Under the pieces are notes generated by a model. The model saw only the letters and a program-made list of their open reading frames with translations, had not been told where the DNA came from and did not search any database. Source: an uncultured Granulosicoccaceae bacterium (GTDB lineage: Bacteria; Pseudomonadota; Gammaproteobacteria; Granulosicoccales; Granulosicoccaceae). From it: a stretch of 32,022 bases of DNA. Each line of letters starts with the position of its first letter. Position 1 is the first letter of the stretch. Shown here piece after piece: positions 4,330 through 20,275 of the stretch. The stretch is from assembly GCA_937922015.1 (NCBI GenBank), contig CAKZVB010000276.1, forward strand, positions 1 to 32,022. The letters are read 5' to 3'. The translations under genes were made by a program, and so were the position numbers.

Positions 4330-6198
4330 TCAGATGGAATACATTAAATTGATCACAGAGATACTGACCACCATAAACAGCAGCGTCATCACGCTGCCGA
4401 CCCGGATAAAGTCCGATACCCGATAACCGCCGGGCCCCATAATCAAGGCATTAACCTGGTGCGTTGGAAGTAAAAAGGAGTTTGAGGTGGCCACGCCGAC
4501 GGTCAGCGCAAACATAGCCGGATCTGCACCGACCGCATTGGCCATATTGACTGCCAGCGGAACCAGTAAAACCGTTGCCCCGACGTTTGACATAAACAGT
4601 GAAAATACCGTGGCGAGTGTTGCCACCACGACCTGGACCTCCCATACCGCCACCCCGTCCAGCCAGAACAAGACCTGCGATGCAATCCATGCCGCCGCCC
4701 CGGAGTATTCAACAGCCTGCCCCAGTGGAATAAGACTGGCAAGCAGAAACACTGTTTTCCAGCTCACCGCATGGTAGGCCTCGTCCATTGTGATCGCCCC
4801 ACTGACCACCATTCCCACTGCTCCAAACAATAATGAAACAGAGATCTGGAAGTCAGTAAATAACACCAGCAGCATTGAAAGCGTAAAGAACATCAGCGCG
4901 ACACGGGTTTTTCCGTAACGAACATCTTCATTCGGATGATCAGTCACCACCGCAAAGTCTGCACTGTTGCGCAGCACTGCCAGATCCTTCCACGCAATGT
5001 GCACCACCAATGTATCTCCACCCTGCAGGGCAATCTGGCGAAAACCATCGTCCAGCACCTCACCCGCCCGATAAATTTTCAGCACACTCAGATCACCGGC
5101 TTGTTGCAGACGCATTTGATGAACTGTCTGTCCCACAAACAAAGATCCCGGTGGAATCACAATCTCTGCAATACCGGTCTGCTGCGCGTTGGTAACACTT
5201 GCAAATACGTTTTCATTTTTGACGATTCGCAGTTTGTATCTGCGTGCAAACTTGATCAATTGCCGTTTGTTGCACATCACACCCAGATAGCTGTCAATCC
5301 AGATGACGTTTTTGCCGCCGGGTACCACTGAAATTTTGTCGTCACTTTTAACAGCAAGTATCGCCGGAACACTTTCCAGTGTGCGTTCGATTTGAAGGAT
5401 AGTCATTCCCACCAGCGGGCTATCCACAGTTGCCTGCAGTTCGTACAACTCTCCCGCCATGCCGTACACACGCTGAAAATAGTCTCTGGGACGAACGCTG
5501 CTGGAGCGCGCCACGGTAGTTTTCGCTGCGGGCATTAAAAAACGTCCGAACAGAGCAAACAACAAAAGACCGGTAAGGGTAAGCGCCAAACCTACCGGCG
5601 TAACATCAAACAAATGAAACAGCTCCATCTGCTGGTCTGCAGGCAAAGACCGGTTGGAAGAGATGATCAGGTCATTCAGCAATATCAGTGAGCTTGAACC
5701 GACCATCGTCATCGAGCCACCCAACATAATGCAAAACCCCATTGGCATGAGTAATCTCGAAATAGGAATGCCACTGAGTCTTGAAATTCGATCTGCAACA
5801 GGAAGGAACAACGCCGCTGCACCAATATTTTGTACAAAGCCTGACAGCAACGCGCCACAGCCTGCAAGCAAAGCGGTAATACGCGATTCCCGGCCAGCGC
5901 CCTGTCTGGAAATCCAGGTTGCCACCTGGCTCATGGAACCTGTTTTATCAAGGCCCGTGGCAATAATCATGGTGGCGATAATCGACATCACCGCGTTACT
6001 GGAAAACCCGTTAAAAAGCTCTGTTGAGGGCAGTATTTCATCAACCCCCGGCAATGCACCGGAAAAACCTAATAACACCAATATCACAAGGGCTGCGACG
6101 TCAATTCGCACCACTTCGGTGATCAGTAACAACACGGTTAAGCTTAGAAAGGCAAGTGCTACGACAATTTCAGGCGTTAAATTAGCAACGTGTGACAA
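4330..6198 (-). CDS. SLC13/DASS-type anion transporter with central RCK_C (TrkA-C) domains
   Basis: A 622-residue inner-membrane protein. Hydrophobic halves at residues ~8-230 and ~435-622 flank a soluble segment (~250-425) with the pattern of TrkA C-terminal (RCK_C) domains, including GSLFVGQTVHQMRL and a GDTLVVHI strand. The C-terminal half has SNVGATV and a SFLLPTHQVNALIMGPGGY segment, characteristic of the divalent anion:Na+ symporter family (sulfate, dicarboxylate, taurine-like substrates). The start is TTG just downstream of an in-frame stop and has no clear Shine-Dalgarno, so the initiation site is uncertain by a few codons. It lies between the TRAP permease and the dioxygenase gene on the same strand (149 nt before the latter). 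It may be an alternative uptake route for the same pathway. Family confident; substrate unknown. Confidence 0.85.
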   Translation of the reverse strand: MSHVANLTPEIVVALAFLSLTVLLLITEVVRIDVAALVILVLLGFSGALPGVDEILPSTELFNGFSSNAVMSIIATMIIATGLDKTGSMSQVATWISRQGAGRESRITALLAGCGALLSGFVQNIGAAALFLPVADRISRLSGIPISRLLMPMGFCIMLGGSMTMVGSSSLILLNDLIISSNRSLPADQQMELFHLFDVTPVGLALTLTGLLLFALFGRFLMPAAKTTVARSSSVRPRDYFQRVYGMAGELYELQATVDSPLVGMTILQIERTLESVPAILAVKSDDKISVVPGGKNVIWIDSYLGVMCNKRQLIKFARRYKLRIVKNENVFASVTNAQQTGIAEIVIPPGSLFVGQTVHQMRLQQAGDLSVLKIYRAGEVLDDGFRQIALQGGDTLVVHIAWKDLAVLRNSADFAVVTDHPNEDVRYGKTRVALMFFTLSMLLVLFTDFQISVSLLFGAVGMVVSGAITMDEAYHAVSWKTVFLLASLIPLGQAVEYSGAAAWIASQVLFWLDGVAVWEVQVVVATLATVFSLFMSNVGATVLLVPLAVNMANAVGADPAMFALTVGVATSNSFLLPTHQVNALIMGPGGYRVSDFIRVGSVMTLLFMVVSISVINLMYSI

Positions 6199-6424
6199 TA
6201 GAGAAGAATCGGGTTAGGTGAGGCTGGCTGGAACGCACAGTCATGCAGAATCGAATAGCGAATCATACTTACCAGAATTCTCAACTTCGTAACAAATTGT
6301 GGATTTTGTGTAAGTGTAATGTTAGTTGCCCACCGTGTTCATCCCTCACTACCTGAGAAATGACTTCGGGCACTGCCGTCTCTGTCAGCGAGCGTAACGA
6401 TTTACAGCAAGAGCTGCTCCAGCT

Positions 6425-6580
6425 TTACCGCTCCCTGGATAAAATTTCCAACTCCGCAATAGTCCGCTTCACCTCATGTGCGAAGATCCGTGCAATTACG
6501 GCAGGGCTCCTCGCCCCGCCAACAATCACCAGTGACTGTGCTTTATAGATAATACAGCCAGTCGTCGCCGCATCAGCCAC
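6425..6580 (-). CDS. possible 51-codon ORF overlapping the end of the TRAP permease gene
   Basis: On the minus strand a GTG at 6578-6580 overlaps the last bases of the DctQM gene and opens a frame of 51 codons ending at 6425. The product would contain SLVIVGGARSPAVIARIFAH and then a helical, charged tail. That reads more like protein than chance sequence, but there is no Shine-Dalgarno and I recognise no family. Universal stress proteins often follow TRAP permease genes, but this one does not show their C-terminal Gly-x2-Gly-x9-Gly pattern. The rest of the 6199-6572 interval contains nothing else I can support. It may be a remnant or noise. Confidence 0.2.
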   Translation of the reverse strand: MADAATTGCIIYKAQSLVIVGGARSPAVIARIFAHEVKRTIAELEILSRER

Positions 6581-8627
6581 TCAGATAGCGAGGCAGAAAC
6601 AGAGCAAACTCCGGCAGGAACATCACAATCAATAAGCCGATAATCTGCAGGCCGATGAACGGCAACACAGCCATAAAGATCTGCTGCAAAGTGATATGCG
6701 ATGGTGCGACGGACTTCAGCCAGAAACACGCCGGTCCGAACGGTGGTGATAAAAAGTAAATTTGAATATTCATCACAAACAACACACCAAACCACACGGC
6801 AGCCCAGTCGGGCTCCAGACCAAGCTGGGGTGCAAGGTCACGAATCACAGGGGCAAACACAGGCACAGTAATAAACACGATGGCAATCCACTCCATGAAC
6901 GTTCCAAGGATCACCAGAATGCCCATCATCACAAAGATAATACCGATCGCAGGCAAGCCGAGATCAGCAAACAGCGATCGCATGAAATTTGCGCCGCCAA
7001 TTAAATTGTAAATTCCGACAAACGCCACAGCGCCGATGATCAGCCAGATGATAGTACCCACTGTTGACATGGTACCGGCCAGTGCATGCTGCATCATGTT
7101 CCAGTTAAAGCGATTGCGAATTGCCGCAACAACAATCGCGCCGAACACACCGACCCCAGCGGCCTCGGTTACCGACGCTATTCCAGCATAAATAGACCCC
7201 ATAACAAAAGCGATCAGAGCGATACACATAGCAACAGCCAGCCGCTTGTCTGTAGTCATTTCTGTCGGGCCTTTGATCGCCGCGACTTCTTCTGCAGTAG
7301 GCGCAAGATCATTATTCAGATTACAGCGAATAACCACATACAACGCATAGAAGAACGCCAGCAGCAGCCCCGGTGCGGCCCCGGCCAGAAACAAATCACC
7401 GATCGCAACGTTTGCAGACAATCCGTAGACAATCATGATAATACTTGGCGGGATCAGTGTGGCCAGGGAGCCCGCCGCACATATAACGCCGACCGCTAGT
7501 TTGGTGTCATAGCCCAAACGTAACATCTGTGGCAGCGCGACGAGACCCAGCATCACGATTTCACCGCCCATCACACCTGACATCGCCGCCAGGACGACGG
7601 CGACAGCAACGGTCTGCACAGCCACCCCGCCACGCATTTTTCCGGCAAAAATTGACATGGCATCAAATAAATCTTCTGCCACACCTGCTTTCTCGAGTAT
7701 GGAGGCCATAAGCACGAACAACGGCACCGCAACAAGTGAATAATGCTCCAACAGTCCGTAGGCATTAGTGGAAACCAGATACAAACCGTTTGGCCCGAAA
7801 AACACCAGCGCGGTCATGACCGACACAAACAGGGTGACGATGCCAAGCGGCATGCCCGTCGTCATTAACAGCAACAAACAGGCAACCATCACCAAACTTA
7901 CCGAGCTCAGTTCATAGCTGCGGGCATCAATGTAATCCTGCGGGTTAAAGACAGCGCCTATCTTGCCGTACACATCGTGAACGGCGCTGGCAACACCCCC
8001 ATCGCCCAGGTAGTGAATCGCTATGGTTAAGCCGAAGCGTAGAAAAATCAGACCACCGATTACTAAAACTATATTTTTTATCAGTGAGCTACTGAAGTGC
8101 CGCCAGCAATTCACGATCAACTGGGCCAGATATAATATCGCGCCCAGCACCAGCAGTGTCTTTAGCATCATTGGCTGGGGCGCATTAAAAGCACTGCCAG
8201 ATCTTTCAACGATCGATATCGCCTCCAGCGCACGGCCCAGACTGTCGTCAACCAGAAGAAACAGCGCGGCGATGCCTATCAGGTAGGCAAACAGATCAAG
8301 CCACCAGCGCGACGTATCAGTGCCCATGATGTAGAAAACCGTGATGCCGATGTGGCGCTTTTTAAGAGTCACGTAGCCCGCCGAGATTGTCCACGCGGCG
8401 GCACACAGGACCATTACTACCTCAAACGCCCACGAAGTCGGTGAATTGAACACATACCTCGCGACGACTTCGTACACAGTGACTGCGGCGCACAGAAAAT
8501 AGAGCTGTGCGACCGCCAACCCGCTGAATCGGCTTATGTGGTCAATGAATGAAAAAGCATCTGGCCGACCATCTTGATCGGTGCGGGACAATTCATCCGC
8601 GCGATCATCAGCAGCTAACAACGCCAT
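6573..8627 (-). CDS. fused TRAP transporter permease, DctQ-DctM type
   Basis: A 684-residue fusion of the small and large TRAP permease subunits. The DctQ part (residues ~30-178) contains RYVFNSPTSWAFE, the typical loop of that subunit. An extra hydrophobic helix (~183-205) joins it to the DctM part (~240-684), which carries the GGEIVMLGLVALPQM and ATLIPPSIIMIVYG scaffolds and the C-terminal SPPFGPACFWLKSV segment of the mannitol/chloroaromatic-type subgroup. It drives Na+-dependent uptake of an organic acid delivered by a periplasmic DctP protein. A good GGAGG lies before the ATG (complement of 8635-8639). The matching receptor is probably the DctP gene on the opposite strand at 8900, an unusual divergent layout. 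Confidence 0.93.
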   Translation of the reverse strand: MALLAADDRADELSRTDQDGRPDAFSFIDHISRFSGLAVAQLYFLCAAVTVYEVVARYVFNSPTSWAFEVVMVLCAAAWTISAGYVTLKKRHIGITVFYIMGTDTSRWWLDLFAYLIGIAALFLLVDDSLGRALEAISIVERSGSAFNAPQPMMLKTLLVLGAILYLAQLIVNCWRHFSSSLIKNIVLVIGGLIFLRFGLTIAIHYLGDGGVASAVHDVYGKIGAVFNPQDYIDARSYELSSVSLVMVACLLLLMTTGMPLGIVTLFVSVMTALVFFGPNGLYLVSTNAYGLLEHYSLVAVPLFVLMASILEKAGVAEDLFDAMSIFAGKMRGGVAVQTVAVAVVLAAMSGVMGGEIVMLGLVALPQMLRLGYDTKLAVGVICAAGSLATLIPPSIIMIVYGLSANVAIGDLFLAGAAPGLLLAFFYALYVVIRCNLNNDLAPTAEEVAAIKGPTEMTTDKRLAVAMCIALIAFVMGSIYAGIASVTEAAGVGVFGAIVVAAIRNRFNWNMMQHALAGTMSTVGTIIWLIIGAVAFVGIYNLIGGANFMRSLFADLGLPAIGIIFVMMGILVILGTFMEWIAIVFITVPVFAPVIRDLAPQLGLEPDWAAVWFGVLFVMNIQIYFLSPPFGPACFWLKSVAPSHITLQQIFMAVLPFIGLQIIGLLIVMFLPEFALFLPRYLSG

Positions 8628-8741
8628 ATAATTTCCTCCGAAATATTAAACTCTTTAGGTTGCGATATTGACAACCCGAGCCTAACAGTGTCCCATAGGT
8701 GACGTGGGGTCAATCCCTAACGGAGGAAAAGTGCAAAACTA

Positions 8742-8870
8742 ATGAACACCGATGACGACGGCGGTCGACGCGATCCTGTAAAATTCTACGGACCATGGGC
8801 CTGGGTATTCGGCCTTCTGGCTGGTGCTTTTGTCACCTGGCTGATGTTTGCACTATCAGACGGCTTCTAG
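8742..8870 (+). CDS. small single-pass membrane protein (42 aa)
   Basis: A 43-codon frame with an ATG start encodes an acidic, polar N-terminus (MNTDDDGGRRDPVKFYG) and then one clear transmembrane helix rich in Trp, Phe, Leu and Ala, ending LSDGF. The soluble tail followed by a helix of about 20 residues is not what random sequence looks like. The nearest Shine-Dalgarno is a strong GGAGG at 8722-8726, but its 15-nt spacing is longer than usual. The stop is 29 nt before the DctP start, so the two are likely co-transcribed. The position, alone between divergent TRAP permease and receptor genes, suggests a role with that transporter, possibly as an accessory or assembly subunit. No known family is recognised. 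Confidence 0.6.
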   Translation: MNTDDDGGRRDPVKFYGPWAWVFGLLAGAFVTWLMFALSDGF

Positions 8871-8899
8871 GCCGTCAACACTTAATGAGAGGAAAAAAA

Positions 8900-9922
8900 A
8901 TGATACGAATGAAGCTTACGCTTAGCGCTATTGCGCTGGTCATGTCAACGACCGTTGTTAACGCAGACACCATAAAAATACAAGCCAGCTCCCGTGCCGG
9001 TGATTGGGCCATGCAGTTTTACCAGGTCTGGGTAGAGAAGTGGAACACCATGGCCGGTCCTGACGGCACCCAAATGGAAGTGCTGCCAACCCAGGCAGTT
9101 GTACCTTACAAAGAGACCATCGATGCGGTTGCCAACGGCATACTTGCCGGTGATCTCAACGCAATCTCATACTTCACCGGTCGCGATCAGGCGTTCTCGA
9201 TACTAGGCGATCTGATCTCCGGCTACGACACCGTTGATCAGATGCAAACTTTTTGTCAGTACGGTGGCGGCAAGGAAATGCTGCAAAAAGTCTATGACAA
9301 GTACACCAACGGCAACACCGTGGTGATTGGATGCGGACCTTACACCCGTGAAGCTTTTGTATCTTCCATCCCAATCAATACTATCGACGATCTCAAGGGC
9401 GTGAAACTTCGCTCGCCGGAAGGTCTGGCATCAGAGGTATTCAAACGTGCTGGCGCGTCTCCGGTTGCTCTGCCTTTTTCGGAAGTTTATACCTCGCTAG
9501 AAAAAGGGCTGGTGCAGGCAGCAGACGCATCATCCTATGTAAATAATGATACCAGCGGCATGCACAAGGTTGCCAAGTATCCAATCTACCCGGGCATTCA
9601 CTCTATGGCTGTTCTGCAGCTCGTGATAAACAAAAGAGCCTTCGAAAAGATGAGTGCCTCTGAACAAACCATGCTGGAGGTCTGGTACACCGCGATGAAC
9701 ACGTCCATGCGCAGAATGTCTGACATGGAAGATAAGCGGCTGGTTGCAGAACACAAAGCGGGTGACGACATCACGGTAGTCGACTGGGCACAGGAAGATC
9801 GTGACAAGATGCGCGCTATTGCAGTAGAAGCATGGGAAGACGTTGCTGACAAGTCGCCGCTTGCACGCGAAGCGCTGGACGCCCATTTGAAATTCATGAA
9901 GCAAATGGGTTTACTTAAGTAA
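8900..9922 (+). CDS. TRAP transporter substrate-binding protein, DctP family
   Basis: A 340-residue periplasmic binding protein. I chose the ATG at 8900 over an upstream in-frame ATG at 8795 because AGAGG lies immediately upstream and the choice gives a clean Sec signal peptide (residues ~1-22, ending VVNADT). The DctP/TakP features are present: a GVKLRSPEGLASEVFKRAG strand-helix with the substrate-carboxylate Arg, and the LPFSEVYTSLEKGLVQAAD segment. Such receptors bind an organic anion, usually a carboxylate, and hand it to a DctQM permease. The divergent DctQM fusion at 6573-8627 belongs to the matching mannitol/chloroaromatic/2-oxo-acid type and is its probable partner. A hairpin follows the stop. 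Confidence 0.92.
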   Translation: MIRMKLTLSAIALVMSTTVVNADTIKIQASSRAGDWAMQFYQVWVEKWNTMAGPDGTQMEVLPTQAVVPYKETIDAVANGILAGDLNAISYFTGRDQAFSILGDLISGYDTVDQMQTFCQYGGGKEMLQKVYDKYTNGNTVVIGCGPYTREAFVSSIPINTIDDLKGVKLRSPEGLASEVFKRAGASPVALPFSEVYTSLEKGLVQAADASSYVNNDTSGMHKVAKYPIYPGIHSMAVLQLVINKRAFEKMSASEQTMLEVWYTAMNTSMRRMSDMEDKRLVAEHKAGDDITVVDWAQEDRDKMRAIAVEAWEDVADKSPLAREALDAHLKFMKQMGLLK

Positions 9923-9932
9923 AGTCCATCAT

Positions 9933-9959
9933 GACCCCGGTTCAGTATGAATCGGGGTC
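9933..9959 (+). terminator. hairpin after the DctP gene
   Basis: GACCCCGGTTC (9933-9943) pairs with GAATCGGGGTC (9949-9959), an 11-bp stem with one G-U pair and a 5-nt loop, 10 nt after the stop codon. The T-run behind it is weak (GATTTACT), so termination may be partial. Confidence 0.6.
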
Positions 9960-10098
9960 GATTTACTGCAGTCATCGGCACCTGTCCTGACTGACAAATA
10001 AAGCTACTTCAACAATCTATACCACCAATCATGTTATGTGGCGTCAGCCTTCAATAACAACGCACCCTGACGTGCCGCGCACAAAGACCGGAGACACC

Positions 10099-11070
10099 AT
10101 GAAACTCTTCACCCGATCAATACTGGCAGCATCTGTTTTCGCGTTAAGCAGCATGGCATTGCTAAGCACACCAGCCACCGCTGAAACCCGGGTCACCTAT
10201 AAATCAGCCAAATCCACATCATCTTATTACCAGATGGGTGTGCAGTTTTCACAAGCCATGAAAAATGGCACAGATGGCGATGTGATCGTCACGGTAGAAG
10301 AAAGTCAGGGGTCGGTACAGAATGTAATGGAAGCCGCCGTTCGCGATGGAAATTACCTGTTTACCACACCACCCGCACTTATCGGACTTGCCCGCCAGGG
10401 TAAGGCTATGTTCAAAGACAAAACCAACCCTAAGTTCGCAGACATCAGAGCATTGTTTCCTATCCCGTCTCTGACCATGCACTTTGTTGTCAGGGCAGAC
10501 AGTTCCATTAGCAGCTTTGCTGACCTTGAAGGTAAAACAATATTACTCGGCAAAGGCAGTTTTGGTGCTAAAGAAGGGGCCAAATATCTAAAGTTATTTG
10601 GCCTTGAAGGCAAGGTGAAAATTGCCGATGTAGAATTATCCAACGCCGGCCCTGCACTTAAAAACGGACAGATAGACGGCTTTGTCACCGCCGGTTCTTT
10701 TCCAGCACCCAATGTAATAGAAGCGGCGGCCGGTACCGGTGTAAAAGTGCTGTCCTTAACTGAAGACCAAATCGCACAGACCAAACGAACCCGGCTTGTT
10801 ATTCCCGCAGGCACATACAAAGGTCAGGACACTGATATCGTTACTACGTCTTTGCCCGTCGTTGCATACAGCACCACACAAATGGACGACGACACCGCCT
10901 ATACCCTGACAAAAACCTATTGGAACGAACGTGAAAAAATGTCTGGAGAAGCTGCCTGGTGGGGCGCTGTAAGCACAGATATGCTGGCTAATATATCCAC
11001 AGAAATACACCCGGGCGCACTTAAGGTTTATGAAGAAGCCGGCGCACCGCTGCAGGATCACCACCGATAG
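10099..11070 (+). CDS. TRAP transporter solute receptor, TAXI family
   Basis: A 323-residue periplasmic protein. The ATG at 10099 (GGAG at 10090-10093) gives a typical Sec signal ending STPATAE; the frame is open 21 codons further upstream, but that part is not signal-like. The mature N-terminus (VTYKSAKSTSSYYQMGVQFS), the SSISSFADLEGKTILLGKGS segment, and the GQIDGFVTAGSFPAP strand are typical of TAXI receptors. TAXI proteins deliver substrates such as glutamate or other carboxylates to fused 4TM/12TM permeases. Exactly such a permease follows 87 nt later. The two are separated by a strong inverted repeat, and the permease frame is the same as that of this gene. Confidence 0.92.
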   Translation: MKLFTRSILAASVFALSSMALLSTPATAETRVTYKSAKSTSSYYQMGVQFSQAMKNGTDGDVIVTVEESQGSVQNVMEAAVRDGNYLFTTPPALIGLARQGKAMFKDKTNPKFADIRALFPIPSLTMHFVVRADSSISSFADLEGKTILLGKGSFGAKEGAKYLKLFGLEGKVKIADVELSNAGPALKNGQIDGFVTAGSFPAPNVIEAAAGTGVKVLSLTEDQIAQTKRTRLVIPAGTYKGQDTDIVTTSLPVVAYSTTQMDDDTAYTLTKTYWNEREKMSGEAAWWGAVSTDMLANISTEIHPGALKVYEEAGAPLQDHHR

Positions 11071-11093
11071 CTTTTAACACAGAACTACAATCA

Positions 11094-11137
11094 GCTTGCT
11101 GCATCTACCTGGACATACCGTCAGAGATGCAGCAAGC
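11094..11137 (+). repeat. perfect 13-bp hairpin between receptor and permease genes
   Basis: GCTTGCTGCATCT (11094-11106) and AGATGCAGCAAGC (11125-11137) are exact reverse complements separated by 18 nt. The hairpin lies 24 nt after the TAXI stop and 20 nt before the first possible permease start. There is no T-run, so it is more like an intercistronic stem that protects the receptor mRNA or limits permease expression than a simple terminator. Receptors are generally needed in excess over permeases. Confidence 0.75.
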
Positions 11138-11157
11138 ATTGCCTTTGCCCCCTGCCC

Positions 11158-12951
11158 TTGCCCGGATCTAACACCACCATAAACAATCCACAGACCTATC
11201 GCCGCTTATGGATAGCGCTCGGGGCTGTATCAATCATATTTCATAGTGCGCTGGTGTTCAGCGGCCTGATACCAAATCTTATCAGTCGTCCGCTGCACAT
11301 GGCCCTGGCTGCACCGTGGATATTCCTGTACGCGGATGTCTGCTCAGCCAGACCTGCAGACTGGATACTTCGTGTTGTTTGTTGTGCGGTTACTATCGCC
11401 ATATGTTTATGGATTGCATTAAACCAATCGGCACTCGGTGATCAATACGGCTACCTGAATGGAAACCTGCAAACCTGCATGGCGCTGGCACTGCTTGCCG
11501 GTGTAATCGAAATGGCTCGCAGGGCGATAGGCTGGCCACTGCCATTAGTTACCGTTGTCGTCTTATGCTATGGCTTGTACGGGCAACACCTGCCCGGAGA
11601 ATTCGGCTTTGCGGCCATCCCCGTTAAAAGTTTTCTCGGCACGCTCACCATTGCTGAAGGCGGCGTATGGGGCAAACTTACCGGCATCTCAGTCAATGTT
11701 GTCGCGGTATTTGTGATATTCGGTGCAGTGTTAAACGCAGGTGAAGCGGGTCAGGGATTTATGAATCTGGCAACCGCTGTCGGCGGTCGACTACGCGGCG
11801 GGGCTGCCAAGGTATCTGTGTTGTCCAGCGCCTTGTTCGGATCAATTTCGGGCTCCGCCTCTGCCAATGTTGCATCTACCGGTGCAGTCACACTGCCCGC
11901 CATGACCAGGCTGGGTTATCCAAAATCACTTGCCGCTGCCACCGAATCAGTCGCCTCCAGCGGCGGTCAGATTATGCCACCACTGATGGGTGCAGGCGCA
12001 TTTGTGATGGTTGAGCTAACCGGCATCTCGTACACCGATATAATGACCGCTGCTCTGCTGCCGTCACTGCTGTACTTCTTTGCAGTATGGATTGGAATCG
12101 ATGCCTACAGCAGGCGCTACAATCTGGCCCGCCTGCCCGTAGACATGATGCCATCAGCGCGCACGGTGTTAATCACCACCGGTTTTTTCCTGATCCCTTT
12201 TGGTGTATTGCTGACCGGGATGTTTGTGTTTAACGTCACGCCGCAGTATGCCGCAACTGTCGCCAGCCTGGTGGCAGTTGTGCTGTTATTTTTTAGCGCC
12301 ACACCCTCGGTCTCACTCACACTGTGGTCTCAAAGAATGTCGTCTGCCTGCATACAGGGCGGCAAACAGATCGCCGTGATCGCAGCGATTATATTATGTG
12401 CATCTATAATCGTTGGTGTACTTGGCATGACCGGACTGGGTGTTAAGATAACCTCGGTCATATTGGCAGGGTCTGGCGGAAACCTGTGGCTGGCGCTGCT
12501 GCTTACCGCCGTCGCCTGTTTGATCCTGGGTATGGAGGTACCAACAACGGCTGCCTATGTTATTTGTGTATCAGTGGCAGGTCCTGCACTTATTGAACTC
12601 GGCCTGACACCATTACAGGCCCACTTGTTTGTTTTCTGGTATGCGCTTCTGTCCACAATCACCCCTCCGGTCTGTGGCGCGGTATTTATTGCCGCAGGCA
12701 TGGTGGGTGAAAACTGGTTACGTGTTGCCGGCAAGGCGATGGCCCTTGGTATCGGGCTGTACCTGATTCCACCTGCGATGATCGCGAATCCTGCGTTGCT
12801 GTCTATTGCCACCGATTCGCTACCGGCAATTATTGCGTCTATTAAAATAACTATCGCACTGGCGATGATTTCGTTTGGTGTCATTCTCAGGCAAAACCTG
12901 CCCGTACAAACCGCGTTAACCATCGGCGGACTCATACTGATCTTTGTTTGA
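11158..12951 (+). CDS. TRAP transporter fused permease, 4TM/12TM (TAXI-associated) type
   Basis: A 597-residue polytopic protein with the small subunit fused to the large. The large part has LRGGAAKVSVLSSALFGSIS, SANVASTGAVTLPAM and ASSGGQIMPPLMGAGAFVM, all signatures of the TAXI-type permease, and GMEVPTTAAYVICVSVAGPA in the second half. It works with the upstream TAXI receptor. The start is doubtful. The first in-frame candidate after the receptor stop is TTG at 11158 (CTG at 11152 is possible), no ATG or GTG exists before the first transmembrane helix, and there is no Shine-Dalgarno. The frame is open all the way back to the receptor's amber stop. Slightly shorter than most family members. 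Function class is secure. Confidence 0.92.
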   Translation: MPGSNTTINNPQTYRRLWIALGAVSIIFHSALVFSGLIPNLISRPLHMALAAPWIFLYADVCSARPADWILRVVCCAVTIAICLWIALNQSALGDQYGYLNGNLQTCMALALLAGVIEMARRAIGWPLPLVTVVVLCYGLYGQHLPGEFGFAAIPVKSFLGTLTIAEGGVWGKLTGISVNVVAVFVIFGAVLNAGEAGQGFMNLATAVGGRLRGGAAKVSVLSSALFGSISGSASANVASTGAVTLPAMTRLGYPKSLAAATESVASSGGQIMPPLMGAGAFVMVELTGISYTDIMTAALLPSLLYFFAVWIGIDAYSRRYNLARLPVDMMPSARTVLITTGFFLIPFGVLLTGMFVFNVTPQYAATVASLVAVVLLFFSATPSVSLTLWSQRMSSACIQGGKQIAVIAAIILCASIIVGVLGMTGLGVKITSVILAGSGGNLWLALLLTAVACLILGMEVPTTAAYVICVSVAGPALIELGLTPLQAHLFVFWYALLSTITPPVCGAVFIAAGMVGENWLRVAGKAMALGIGLYLIPPAMIANPALLSIATDSLPAIIASIKITIALAMISFGVILRQNLPVQTALTIGGLILIFV

Positions 12952-15770: not shown

Positions 15771-18032
15771 CTACTGCGCAGATACCTTTATTTCCTTTGC
15801 CTCATGGGCAATCGCATCTAAAATTGATTGCTGAAGTTCAGAGTATATTCCCACATGCTGCTGTGTTATCTCAGCGTATTCTGTAAGTTCTTTATCACTG
15901 AGTGAAGAAAACAGGAAGGCCATTGGTTGCAACATATCATCCCTGAGAATAGATTCGAGTTTTACAGACTTTTGTTTGATCACTTGCCCGTGAATCATTT
16001 CCTTCTGCATTTGCTCTACGTCTCCGGAGCTCTCCGCCTTTTGTTTGCAACCACTGACAGACCAACCGGCATAGTCAAGCTCTACAGCGATACTGGCGAT
16101 ACCTTTGCCGGTCACTGTGTTGTTGTAAATCTGCTGGATTCGCTCGACACGATCGGCAGCTACCGTGAATTCTTTCAATTCAGCTTCGTCAATCCGGAAT
16201 CTTTCAAGCTCCAGCACCTTGCGCCCGACCGGAGACTCATACCAATCCACCAGATTGCGCGCTAAGGCCTCTGGTGTTTTCTGCTGAAGATTGCCTATAA
16301 CCACATTGTGTAGTCGCCCGGCATCCGGTGTGCGAAGGTTTGCTGTGCTATCACAGCGACTGGCATGGCGGTCAGCTGCTTTTACTATGTCAGCTGGAAA
16401 CTGCCTGAGCATGGCAGAGATACCTGCCTGTTGTACAAATTTCGCGTATGTCTCTGCAGCCCCGGCTGCACTGACAGCACTGGCCGTACTGCTATCAGTA
16501 CGCGCAATGGCTACCGGTATAGACTGGCCATTTTTCAGAGGCAGGTGTTTAACTGATCGGGTCACATGATCGAATTTTGTAGTCAATCCCCTGCCTGCCA
16601 GTATTGTAAAGGCCTCTTCGGCAGTCACACCGCTCACGCGACGCTGCACAGCCGGCAGTCGGCGACTGTAGGCATCCAGCACCATGTCATTTTCGCTGAC
16701 CAGTTCATAGCCGATGTAGGCGGCGAGCTTGTTCAATGCCGTGCCGACAGATTCATTGTCGCTGAAATCCCACTCGACGATATAACTTAGCGGGTCTGTC
16801 GATGAATCGTTAGCAGCGGCATTGGAATTTTTAGGGGGCCCGAGATAGAAGCCGTTACCGGCATCAGACCGAGGGAGCTCTGCTGCGTTTGTTGTCGCAG
16901 GTTCAATCGCCGCTAACGCTGAAGCAATGTCACCCTTTGGCACTACAGCTATAACGGCAGGAGCCTCCTGCTCGACCAATTCATTGATGACCGGCCCGGG
17001 TTCAGGGTTTATTTCGGCTACAGGTTTCAGCTCAGCTTTAGGCTCAGGTACCGGCTCAGGCTCAGGTTTCGCATCAACTAGAATTTCCGGTATGAGTTCA
17101 GGCTCAGGTTTCGCATCGACTATAATTTCCGGTATGAGTTCAGGCACAGACTTCGATTGCTTATTCCTTGCCGCCACCACGGGTTCAGGGTCCGGCTCTT
17201 TGGCTGCCTCTACTACCTGCACTCCCGTTACAGCAACCGAATAAACACTGGTATCGACCAGTCCGGTCACCGCTGTGATTTCCGGCTCGCCTGCGTCCTG
17301 CAACGGAATAGTATCTGCGATAGGTATTATCTCTTGCGATTGATCCAGCCAGCGCGTATAGGTTTCCGGACTGCTGCTTTGACCAAAGGACTCGTTATTC
17401 GACACCGATTTCCCACCACGCGATGCGCGTGACGCACGCGATAAGAAATCAGCATCACCCTCAACTGCCAACCCGTCCGGCCGGTAACTAGTCAACGTCA
17501 CCACTTGATTACTGGGAAGCTCATCTTTTGCGTGTGGGCCTATCAACACCAGAGATTTTCCAAAAGGCAGTCTTGATGCATTGCGCATCATGTTTTCCTG
17601 ATGATTGAAATCCAGATCTTCACCCACAACCCTTAACTTTTCATAGCGACTCTGCGCTACGAGCAGATCTCCAACGGTCGGCAGATTTATCGTCGCACCA
17701 ATGTTTAACTGTGAACCATCATGGTTTTCCAACGCGTGGGTATTATTTTCGTAAAGTGCTGCAGCCAGGTGAAAAAAATCGAGCTCGATGAAGCGATGCT
17801 CCCTGGCTATATTCAACAAGGTATCATCGCGCGCTACTTTTACCTGATCCTGTTCGAACGGCACATCAGTCAATTGGTAACTTGCCAGGGCCTGATTGAG
17901 ATCAGCGTAGTAAACCTTCAGCGCTGCTGCACCGTGCTCCCGACTGTCCGGTGCAGCTATCGAGCCGGTGCAGATCACAAAGCCAAAAAGCACTGCGACA
18001 ATTCTGACAATCTTAATTATCAATTCATTCAC
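15771..18032 (-). CDS. multidomain envelope protein: FimV/LysM-like, Pro-Glu linker, STN/TcpQ-like, DUF2059-like
   Basis: A 753-residue protein with a Sec signal (~1-27). Residues ~65-125 resemble the FimV N-terminal LysM-like domain (DDTLLNIAREH ... LAAALYENN ... LNIGATINLP). A long acidic proline-rich spacer (~290-360) contains a duplicated 14-residue unit. Residues ~415-500 (DFSDNESVGTALNKLAAYIG and the following strands) look like the STN/TcpQ/PilL domain found in secretin-associated proteins. Residues ~555-740, with YESPVGRKVLELE, fit a DUF2059-like helical domain. The likely site is the periplasm, bridging peptidoglycan and an outer-membrane or pilus component. The combination is not one I know. 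It is 44 nt downstream of an orphan DctP receptor gene on the same strand. Domain calls are by pattern and moderately sure. Confidence 0.6.
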   Translation of the reverse strand: MNELIIKIVRIVAVLFGFVICTGSIAAPDSREHGAAALKVYYADLNQALASYQLTDVPFEQDQVKVARDDTLLNIAREHRFIELDFFHLAAALYENNTHALENHDGSQLNIGATINLPTVGDLLVAQSRYEKLRVVGEDLDFNHQENMMRNASRLPFGKSLVLIGPHAKDELPSNQVVTLTSYRPDGLAVEGDADFLSRASRASRGGKSVSNNESFGQSSSPETYTRWLDQSQEIIPIADTIPLQDAGEPEITAVTGLVDTSVYSVAVTGVQVVEAAKEPDPEPVVAARNKQSKSVPELIPEIIVDAKPEPELIPEILVDAKPEPEPVPEPKAELKPVAEINPEPGPVINELVEQEAPAVIAVVPKGDIASALAAIEPATTNAAELPRSDAGNGFYLGPPKNSNAAANDSSTDPLSYIVEWDFSDNESVGTALNKLAAYIGYELVSENDMVLDAYSRRLPAVQRRVSGVTAEEAFTILAGRGLTTKFDHVTRSVKHLPLKNGQSIPVAIARTDSSTASAVSAAGAAETYAKFVQQAGISAMLRQFPADIVKAADRHASRCDSTANLRTPDAGRLHNVVIGNLQQKTPEALARNLVDWYESPVGRKVLELERFRIDEAELKEFTVAADRVERIQQIYNNTVTGKGIASIAVELDYAGWSVSGCKQKAESSGDVEQMQKEMIHGQVIKQKSVKLESILRDDMLQPMAFLFSSLSDKELTEYAEITQQHVGIYSELQQSILDAIAHEAKEIKVSAQ
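17059..17142. repeat. two tandem 42-bp repeats in the Pro-Glu linker
   Basis: Units 17059-17100 and 17101-17142 are identical except for two bases, and each encodes 14 residues of the pattern (P)ELIPEI(I/L)VDAKPEP. The near identity implies a recent duplication by slippage or unequal exchange, so linker length may differ among relatives. Confidence 0.9.
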
Positions 18033-18076
18033 CTATTGGTTGTCAGTTCGATGTATACGGGTAGGACATGCGGCCA

Positions 18077-19099
18077 CTACTGCCGCCAACGGTTATACTG
18101 AATAAGTTCGCGGGCCTTGCCGAGAATCGCACTGCCATCAAAGCCGTGCCTGCCGGCATAGGCAAACCACCGATCATACAAAGGCTGGGCCTGAACTATC
18201 CAGCGCTGTACTTCAGGGCCCCTGAGCACCGTGACGTTGTTGTCACCTGCTACCAGCCGACCATAAGCATCTGCACCGGCCATTACTTCCGCCGCAAACG
18301 CCGATAAGCCTTTACCGCTGAAATTATCCAGCACTCTTTTGAGGTCGTCCGGCATACGCGCATACGAATCCGGATTCATCGCCATAACAAACGCTGTGGT
18401 ATATATCGCTCTTTTTTCGTCGAGCTCCAGATGATGGCCGACCATGTCTGCCAGTTTGATCGATGGGGTAACCTCCCAGGGCAGCAGTGTGCCGCTGATC
18501 TGGCCACCGCGTAAATTCTCCGGAATAGCCGGCAACGGCATGGCAACCGGCTGAGCACCAAACTCACGCAATAACTCAGTAGCCAGTCTGGTCGGCCCTC
18601 TGATCAACATTCCAGACATGTCTTCAAGCTGCCGCACAGGCTGCTTTGTATGAATGACCCCGGGACCATGAACCCAGCCAGCAAGAATTCTGGCGTCTTG
18701 GTATTCAACTTCCTGCAGCTCGCTTTCGATCAAATCCCAAAAGGCTTTAGAGGTAGCCACAGAATCTTCCATAAGAAACGGCAGCTCAAAGACTTCAGTC
18801 CTCTTGAAACGTCCCGGCGTATAGCCGGGGACCGTAAGCACAATATCAGCATCGCCACGTACCGCCTGATCAAAAAGCTCAGCCGGCTTACCGCCCAGTG
18901 ACATTGCCGGGGATAATTCAATGTCTATACGCCCATTGGAGGCATCTTCCAGCGCGGCTTCCCACTCAGCTAAAAACTGCCGGTGAAGGGGTGCTTTTGC
19001 AGAAAGAAAATGATGTAATCTGAGCGTTACTTCAGCCGCGCCTGCAGATACCTGCCACAATACGCTCAACGCACAGACCACCAACGTCGACAGTTTCAT
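18077..19099 (-). CDS. orphan TRAP receptor, DctP family
   Basis: A 340-residue periplasmic binding protein. The frame is open 33 codons upstream, but the ATG at 19099 (MKLSTLVVCALSVLW) begins a normal Sec signal ending SAGAAE. DctP features include LSPAMSLGGKPAELFDQAVRG, a GMLIRGPTRLATELLREFGA segment with the conserved Arg, and QPVAMPLPAIPENLRGGQIS. The usual Glu-Val-Tyr stretch is changed (PAIPENL), placing it in a side branch of the family. No permease gene is next to it; instead the FimV-like multidomain gene follows 44 nt later. It may feed a distant DctQM, or act as a periplasmic sensor or binding component. Family sure, partner unknown. Confidence 0.88.
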   Translation of the reverse strand: MKLSTLVVCALSVLWQVSAGAAEVTLRLHHFLSAKAPLHRQFLAEWEAALEDASNGRIDIELSPAMSLGGKPAELFDQAVRGDADIVLTVPGYTPGRFKRTEVFELPFLMEDSVATSKAFWDLIESELQEVEYQDARILAGWVHGPGVIHTKQPVRQLEDMSGMLIRGPTRLATELLREFGAQPVAMPLPAIPENLRGGQISGTLLPWEVTPSIKLADMVGHHLELDEKRAIYTTAFVMAMNPDSYARMPDDLKRVLDNFSGKGLSAFAAEVMAGADAYGRLVAGDNNVTVLRGPEVQRWIVQAQPLYDRWFAYAGRHGFDGSAILGKARELIQYNRWRQ

Positions 19100-19199: not shown

Positions 19200-19768
19200 C
19201 AAAGCCGGAAAGCCCGCCAGCAATCCGCGATAATACATCTGCTTTATTATGAATCTAATACGATTGATGTATGGACTGGATATCATTACAAACTTCTAAG
19301 GTGAGACGGGACTTCGCCCTTTTCCCGGCGCAAGTCAGACGCAGTCTATCGGAGCAAGGCTGCACCAGTATGGATACACGTCGGACAAACCGACGGTCAT
19401 CTGTGGCTGAACGGAAGCCTTGCCGAATACAGCCTTATATCACTGATGGGTATTGACCGATGCAGGCTCGAAAAAATGTAAGCTATCCGTGGAACGCCAC
19501 GCAAGGCTTCGTGACCTGTTATTTCCTGTCCGGCGATTAAAGAGATGGGCGCTAACTATTTCCAGCGCCATCTTCCAGTGCCATCCAGAAAGTCAGTACT
19601 ACAGCGGAACCACTCATGCGCACGATCTTCCACCGACGGTATGTCATTACCTGTGAATGACCCGCTATTCGCAATGAACGGGCTCACATGTGGCAGGCAA
19701 AATCTCACGCACCTTAGTGATCCTCGCTATGCCCTTGTTTCTGGATGGACACCGGTTACTTCTCAGTC
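19200..19768. other. gene-poor interval of about 570 nt
   Basis: Short frames of 60-75 codons occur on the plus strand (19271-19456, 19453-19656, 19545-19772). None has a Shine-Dalgarno, a convincing composition or a family resemblance, and the minus strand is similarly broken. An inverted repeat, ATACATC (19233-19239) and GATGTAT (19266-19272), lies upstream of the orphan DctP gene and could be regulatory. A decayed gene cannot be excluded; I could not identify one. Confidence 0.45.
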
Positions 19769-19960
19769 TTAAATAATAGGTTTAGCTTCGTCATCACCCA
19801 TTTTGCACATAGCTGTGTCACCGGTGTTGTCGATAGTCCCGCCAGCAGTGAAGCAATCTGTTGCACTCATCCCGTCAGGCTCATTCATCTTAGCCAATGT
19901 TCCGCATGCACTTAGCGTGAAAAGCATCAATACGGCTGCGGCTGTAGTTATGTATTTCAT
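19769..19960 (-). CDS. small lipoprotein, DUF333-like
   Basis: A 63-residue protein with a lipoprotein signal peptide; the lipobox LSAC places the acylated Cys at residue 19. The mature part of about 45 residues contains DCFTAGGTIDN and AMCKMGDDEAK, a Cys-x3-Gly-Gly ... Cys pattern like the DUF333 group of small secreted proteins, whose role is unknown. An AGGA lies before the ATG. It stands alone, with non-coding stretches on both sides, so it is probably its own transcription unit. Lipoprotein nature is clear from sequence; DUF333 membership is tentative. Confidence 0.7.
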   Translation of the reverse strand: MKYITTAAAVLMLFTLSACGTLAKMNEPDGMSATDCFTAGGTIDNTGDTAMCKMGDDEAKPII

Positions 19961-20275
19961 TTATATTATCCTGTTTATGCAAACTTTGACACGGAGCAGC
20001 CACGTTGTGGATTAGCTGCTGCTAAAGAGTAGCAAAGAATACCAGAGTCGTCACCGTCTAAGCACTTGAGGGCGCTCCAGCCTGCACAACGACTGAACCT
20101 AAACTGCCTGCAGTTTGATATTTTAATGTTGTTGCTGTTATCCCCACGCTTTACAGTCTTTGTATAATTACGGCATCACACCTTGCGATTTGCGCAGCAC
20201 CATCTATGCGGTCAGATTTTAGAATCTGACAGAGCCAGGCAAAACGAAAGCTAATATTCTCGCAGTTTTATAAGG
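19961..20275. other. intergenic region with a hairpin downstream of the PhyH gene
   Basis: No gene is visible. GTCAGATT (20211-20218) and AATCTGAC (20223-20230) form a perfect 8-bp stem with a 4-nt loop, about 45 nt after the end of the PhyH-family gene on the minus strand. It has no T-run but is the only candidate terminator for the cinA-like/PhyH pair. Confidence 0.4.

Follow-up and report, generated by a model that had tools for sequence, protein, structure and literature searches.

TRAP receptors are regarded as the delivery arm of a transporter, and the locus described here raises the question of what such a receptor serves when the gene that follows it encodes a multidomain envelope protein rather than a permease. 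The window, i.e. the whole stretch of DNA that was analysed, comprises 32,022 nucleotides from an uncultured Granulosicoccaceae bacterium. On its minus strand, the gene of a DctP-family receptor lies upstream of the gene of a second secreted protein (hereafter FPD), and the coordinates, sizes and 44-nt spacing given in an earlier note on this DNA proved exact. The features are as follows.

19250..19273, minus strand: 24-bp upstream element, common to 4/5 pair promoters (G000, G001, G008, G009)
18077..19099, minus strand: DctP-family TRAP solute receptor, 340 aa, with signal peptide and Arg167 (IRGP motif) kept (PF03480, NF037995, alignment)
18033..18076, minus strand: gap of 44 nt from DctP stop to FPD start
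15771..18032, minus strand: FPD, a 753-aa secreted protein composed of FimV-LysM, linker, PilL-N0 and DUF2059 parts
17952..18032, minus strand: FPD signal peptide, residues ~1-27, with an AxA-type cleavage site in most homologs (alignment and inspection)
17610..17936, minus strand: FPD N-terminal domain, residues 33-141, with FimV-type LysM core at 70-121 (TIGR03505; model pLDDT ~90)
16851..17495, minus strand: Pro/Glu/Ala-rich linker, residues 180-394 (~215), unconserved in sequence and length
16548..16817, minus strand: PilL/TcpQ-type N0/STN domain, residues 406-495 (TIGR03748, 6e-9; fold matches)
15774..16484, minus strand: DUF2059-type all-helical domain, residues 517-753 (PF09832; model pLDDT ~95)

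The receptor and its downstream partner

The upstream gene product, previously called DctP-like, is unambiguously so: it matches PF03480 with E=2.5e-34 (Pfam) and NF037995 with 1.5e-19, and it combines the PF03480 domain with a signal peptide and the conserved arginine of the family. Arg167 is invariant in 9/9 aligned DctPs and, from its motif position, presumably equals the SiaP arginine; TRAP receptors use this position for carboxylates. Between genomes, dN is ~0.09-0.15 for DctP, 0.2-0.4 for the three folded parts of FPD and 0.7-0.95 for the linker, dN/dS being a rough guide only because most comparisons have a saturated or undefined dS. Judged by sequence, DctP is strongly conserved and the folded parts of FPD are conserved, whereas the linker is not.

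In the window copy of FPD, the matches to TIGR03748 (PilL, 6e-9), TIGR03505 (FimV_core, 0.006) and PF09832 (DUF2059, 8.8e-5) each lie below the curated cut-off, the last by only 0.7 bits relative to its gathering threshold. All three domains are nevertheless matched in 6/6 full-length homologs (best values 6e-9 for PilL, 1.5e-8 for FimV_core and 1.4e-9 for DUF2059), and the FPD profile independently matches FimV-length frames (732-1535 aa) at LysM positions in genomes of the family. The structure model has an overall pLDDT of 64, with the LysM-type part (33-141) and the helical DUF2059 part (517-753) confident and residues 159-419 predicted to be disordered; linker length among homologs ranges from 96 to 324 aa. 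Profile searches thus support the domains read earlier from the letters alone (FimV-LysM, STN/TcpQ and DUF2059), and the Pro-Glu spacer is predicted to be disordered.

Two cysteines of the DUF2059 domain are invariant across the aligned family. The top PDB matches of its profile are the DUF2059 structures 2x3o and 3oao, with E-values of 0.06-0.07 that are not significant alone; searches with the whole of FPD (Foldseek and VIA) gave mostly helical matches and nothing usable for this domain, and the profile of the FimV N-domain found no significant PDB relative. No function of DUF2059 was found stated in abstracts on the family.

FPD resembles FimV/HubP in its LysM core (TIGR03505, found in 6/6 homologs) followed by a long acidic linker, but it differs in lacking the transmembrane helix and the cytoplasmic TPR C-terminus (Pfam, inspection) and in ending with PilL and DUF2059 domains. 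The Pfam scan gave no TPR match anywhere in the protein, the alignment of homologs no conserved lipobox Cys in the signal peptide, and inspection of alignment and model no further candidate membrane helix.

The PilL domain and a second receptor joined to it

Modelled alone with 21 sequences, the PilL segment adopts a predicted N0/STN fold (pLDDT 82), and 21/21 PilL members match TIGR03748, with the window copy below the curated cut-off. Fold comparison of this model gave DotD at Z 8.9, BfpG at 7.7, secretin N0 domains at ~5-8 and signalling domains of TonB receptors at ~6-7, while Foldseek returned weak E-values (0.03 and up) with probabilities to 0.98; in sequence search, the PilL profile had no significant PDB relative. 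A Z near 8 is not decisive alone, and the predicted fold is assigned from a match list that consists consistently of N0/STN proteins and phage-hub folds. A published DALI comparison also groups phage-hub folds with N0, a domain that is contained in outer-membrane transport complexes (PMC3093366).

The domain thus shares the N0 fold with PilL2/TcpQ/BfpG and conjugative PilL, and TIGR03748 with the PilL members among them. Theirs, however, belong to pilus or conjugation clusters, whereas the copies studied here are linked to receptors and have no such cluster alongside; near the pair, neither inspection of the ORFs nor selected Pfam/NCBIfam scans detected pilus or conjugation genes. Elsewhere in the family and genus, conjugative-element clusters combine PilL with a TIGR03759 protein and TraD/TraC. 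PFGI-1-type clusters with PilL genes are seen at four loci of relatives (L098, L099, L100 and L102), and one genome, G011, has two.

A second arrangement of the same domain was found in three genomes, namely fusions of 608-615 aa with an N-terminal DctP and a C-terminal PilL (G000:C253, G003:C234 and G009:C149; 69-71% identical to the G000 copy). Within the family (48 genomes), every genome with the fusion also carries the DctP-FPD pair. The fusion receptor has an arginine, R164, invariant in 3/3 copies at an apparently corresponding motif. In the tree, the pair and fusion receptors fall in separate, distant DctP subfamilies, each group supported at 100/100. The PilL domains of FPD and fusion group with three same-genus conjugative copies (86/86), finer branching being weakly supported; a Y-[LF]-G-x-P-[RK]-type lead-in is common to the fusion and FPD copies and missing from those three. 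By sequence, the PilL domain of both proteins therefore resembles the conjugative PilL found within their own genus.

Joint occurrence with type IV pilus genes, one of the checks proposed in the earlier note, is uninformative because PilQ-family secretins are present in 48/48 family genomes, with or without FPD. An R64-type PilN, sought as the cognate secretin, gave no match above cut-off in these 48 genomes.

Distribution, permeases and possible roles

The intact DctP-FPD pair is present in four Granulosicoccaceae MAGs (G000, G003, G008 and G009), at 77-79% identity to the window for DctP and 49-53% for FPD, and the gap between the genes is 24-51 nt in other genomes, so the linkage seen in the window recurs elsewhere. 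Neither of the grounds named in the earlier note for refuting it, domains without HMM support or genes never linked elsewhere, thus applies. G000, G003 and the G008/G009 couple have different flanks around the pair; an HMG-CoA-lyase/CoA-transferase pair lies nearby in both G008 and G009. In a fifth genome (G001, L064:652-1260), the upstream element precedes a DctP reduced to its last 69 codons and an FPD cut by the contig end, for which reason a linkage of five in five would be an overstatement. An apparent DctP-FPD fusion in G008, an open frame of 1141 aa when stops are ignored, was rejected, as in-frame stops separate the genes.

Across 48 family, 369 class and 398 phylum genomes, the FPD architecture was detected in one genus only, one pattern-limited scan of genome contigs did not find it elsewhere either, and within the genomes searched its earlier description as unfamiliar holds. 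In the 369 class genomes, nothing comparable was detected with the PilL profile; in the 398 phylum genomes the profile matched only G000 proteins and, weakly, frames of 185, 461 and 418 residues, the last two of which (L140 and L141) belong to other Gammaproteobacteria.

In the proposed reading, the two genes encode a periplasmic receptor-adaptor module, made up of DctP and FPD and tied to peptidoglycan, that would couple carboxylate binding to an N0-binding envelope complex; we judge the case for it to be about evenly balanced. Counting against it, FPD also occurs without DctP, as the solo paralogs G000:C104 and G009:C74, as the partial copy G008:C318 and in G001. The solo FPD gene of the window's own genome (L065:12974-17265) is divergent from an OmpA-family protein gene ~1 kb away.

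Such solo copies, together with DUF2059-only proteins, would also be expected if FPD were a structural envelope protein, either a tether from peptidoglycan to outer membrane or a pilotin-like protein, that was composed of a FimV-type N-terminus, a conjugative PilL and the DUF2059 of the genus, with DctP a late and dispensable addition. The likeness of its PilL domain to that of conjugative elements in the genus fits this alternative, as does the finding that the pilus protein TcpQ is required for the outer-membrane localisation of a secretin (PMC4971541). It sits poorly with the fusion of the same domain to DctP in three genomes and with the strong conservation of DctP, and we consider it unlikely.

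The earlier remark that the receptor has no permease is true for its operon, although the window holds two other TRAP permeases (6576-8627 and 11158-12951), each adjoining a receptor of its own. The region 4333-12951 is TRAP-rich: the fused DctQM (6576-8627) and a DctP (8795-9922) are divergently oriented, and a 597-aa TRAP permease-like protein (11158-12951) follows a TAXI-type receptor (10036-11070). The fusion loci and the pair loci of three genomes (G003, G008 and G009) gave no DctQ or DctM match. Classical DctPQM transporters share with these loci the receptor family and the position of the conserved arginine, and the examined relatives of both receptors adjoin DctQ and/or DctM, whereas at the pair and fusion loci the receptor is adjacent or fused to an N0 domain without a permease gene. 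The relatives whose neighbours were checked are a subset of the tree: for the fusion receptor, DctQ and DctM are adjacent in 6/7 free-standing relatives, the remaining one (L128, G017) having a DctQ-like gene and then the contig end; for the pair receptor, L077 and L078 lie beside DctQ and DctM, and L076 beside DctQ, again followed by the contig end.

With the DctM of the fusion's relative as query, the matches were 96% in G035 and 63% in G011, and at best 36-38% in the fusion-bearing genomes G000, G003 and G009, which thus hold no close orthologue. With the pair's sister DctM, the best matches were 44% in G009 and 45% in G003. In G003 the sister DctP-DctQ lies at a contig end, and its DctM may simply be unassembled. 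Close copies of this sister DctM are present in G000 and G008, which speaks against the module. As the genomes are MAGs of 81-94% completeness, absence of the permease from fusion- and pair-bearing genomes is likely on this sequence evidence, not proven. The fusion receptor belongs to a distant subfamily, its free-standing relatives are linked to permeases and no orthologous permease was found; TRAP receptors therefore appear, from sequence, to have become linked with one and the same PilL domain twice, after permease loss. Gene phylogeny separates the two couplings, but the organisms do not: every case comes from a single genus, and fusion and pair are found in shared genomes.

Alternatively, DctP might be a conventional TRAP receptor served by a DctQM from another locus, and FPD a neighbour that has nothing to do with it and is co-transcribed only by accident. 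TRAP permeases are plentiful (G000 gave 15 DctM-like matches, and the window contains two permeases) and FPD exists without DctP, but the linkage in four genomes, the independent DctP-PilL fusion and the lack of a close orthologue of the sister DctM in G009 all argue otherwise. In addition, P-to-QM interactions of TRAP systems are described as system-specific rather than promiscuous (review, PMC5812351). On balance this explanation seems quite improbable.

Receptors of this type are already known to use other partners. In TPAT (TatT/TatP of Treponema), a DctP homolog is complexed with an accessory periplasmic protein (PMC5812351), as may be the case here. However, TatT is a TPR trimer and QM is included in the system, whereas FPD has LysM, N0 and DUF2059 domains, with no TPR match (Pfam) and no accompanying permease gene at the pair loci. 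Likewise, in TAXI-GltS (BP0403; PMC12344293) a multidomain TRAP-type receptor occurs without a TRAP permease, but BP0403 is coupled to the membrane symporter GltS, whereas the DctP-FPD pair has no membrane gene. The general idea is therefore not new; the unusual features here are the link to N0, the lack of a membrane gene and the double origin. In the openly licensed literature that was searched, no report was found of a PilL or TcpQ domain in a TRAP receptor, and the arrangement suggests that a receptor can be connected to the cell envelope in a manner not described before.

By analogy with TPAT, FPD could hold DctP at an entry point on the outer-membrane side, from which the loaded receptor would later meet a shared permease. 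The retained binding-site arginine accords with such a hand-off, as does the sister TRAP operon, which adjoins a MarR regulator and an acyl-CoA ligase, a weak hint of carboxylate catabolism and of a carboxylate, perhaps aromatic, as ligand. The lack of a TPR domain in FPD, the failure to find a cognate permease with the pair and the solo FPDs without DctP weigh against it, and we regard this route as doubtful.

In the receptor-adaptor module favoured here, LysM homology suggests that FPD is tied to peptidoglycan, and DctP would dock on it non-covalently, probably at the PilL/N0 domain by analogy with the fusion. Through the linker, the part that comprises N0 and DUF2059 may come within reach of a partner that forms a ring or lies in the outer membrane, putatively of the secretin, T4SS-core or TonB-receptor sort, at which the ligand (a carboxylate, perhaps an aromatic acid) would be captured or reported instead of being delivered to an inner-membrane DctQM. 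The sensing or secretion device suggested in the earlier note is a candidate reading only: FPD has no evident membrane or cytoplasmic part, and no pilus or secretion gene is adjacent. As the function of the module, sensing is plausible without reaching even chances and is slightly preferred; solute hand-off is somewhat less so, and pure scaffolding is rather unlikely. The broader proposal, that TRAP receptors were rewired twice from inner-membrane permeases to a conjugation-related N0/STN adaptor, giving a new class of permease-free device by which carboxylates are reported or delivered to a complex of the outer-membrane or secretion type, is speculative and probably too bold. If true, it would mean that TRAP receptors can be reassigned to envelope machines and that a conjugation-type part has been reused for another job. 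The pair also offers a route to a role for DUF2059.

Upstream regions

The 24-bp element is absent from the G003 pair promoter, and none was found upstream of the solo-FPD or fusion genes; its site scores are not independent, since the matrix was derived from these very sites. The idea that one regulator serves the pair, the fusion and the solo genes was rejected, as the pair motif was not found at the other two. On the upstream side of the window pair (19200-20275), ~1.1 kb without a long ORF is followed by a PhyH-family gene. Upstream of the fusion genes (L068, L071 and L072), a shared segment TTTAC(A/G)TTTGTCCATCAAA...CAAATGTTTA(G/A)AAT is seen, and 2/3 fusion promoters carry a CATTTG/CAAATG inverted repeat.
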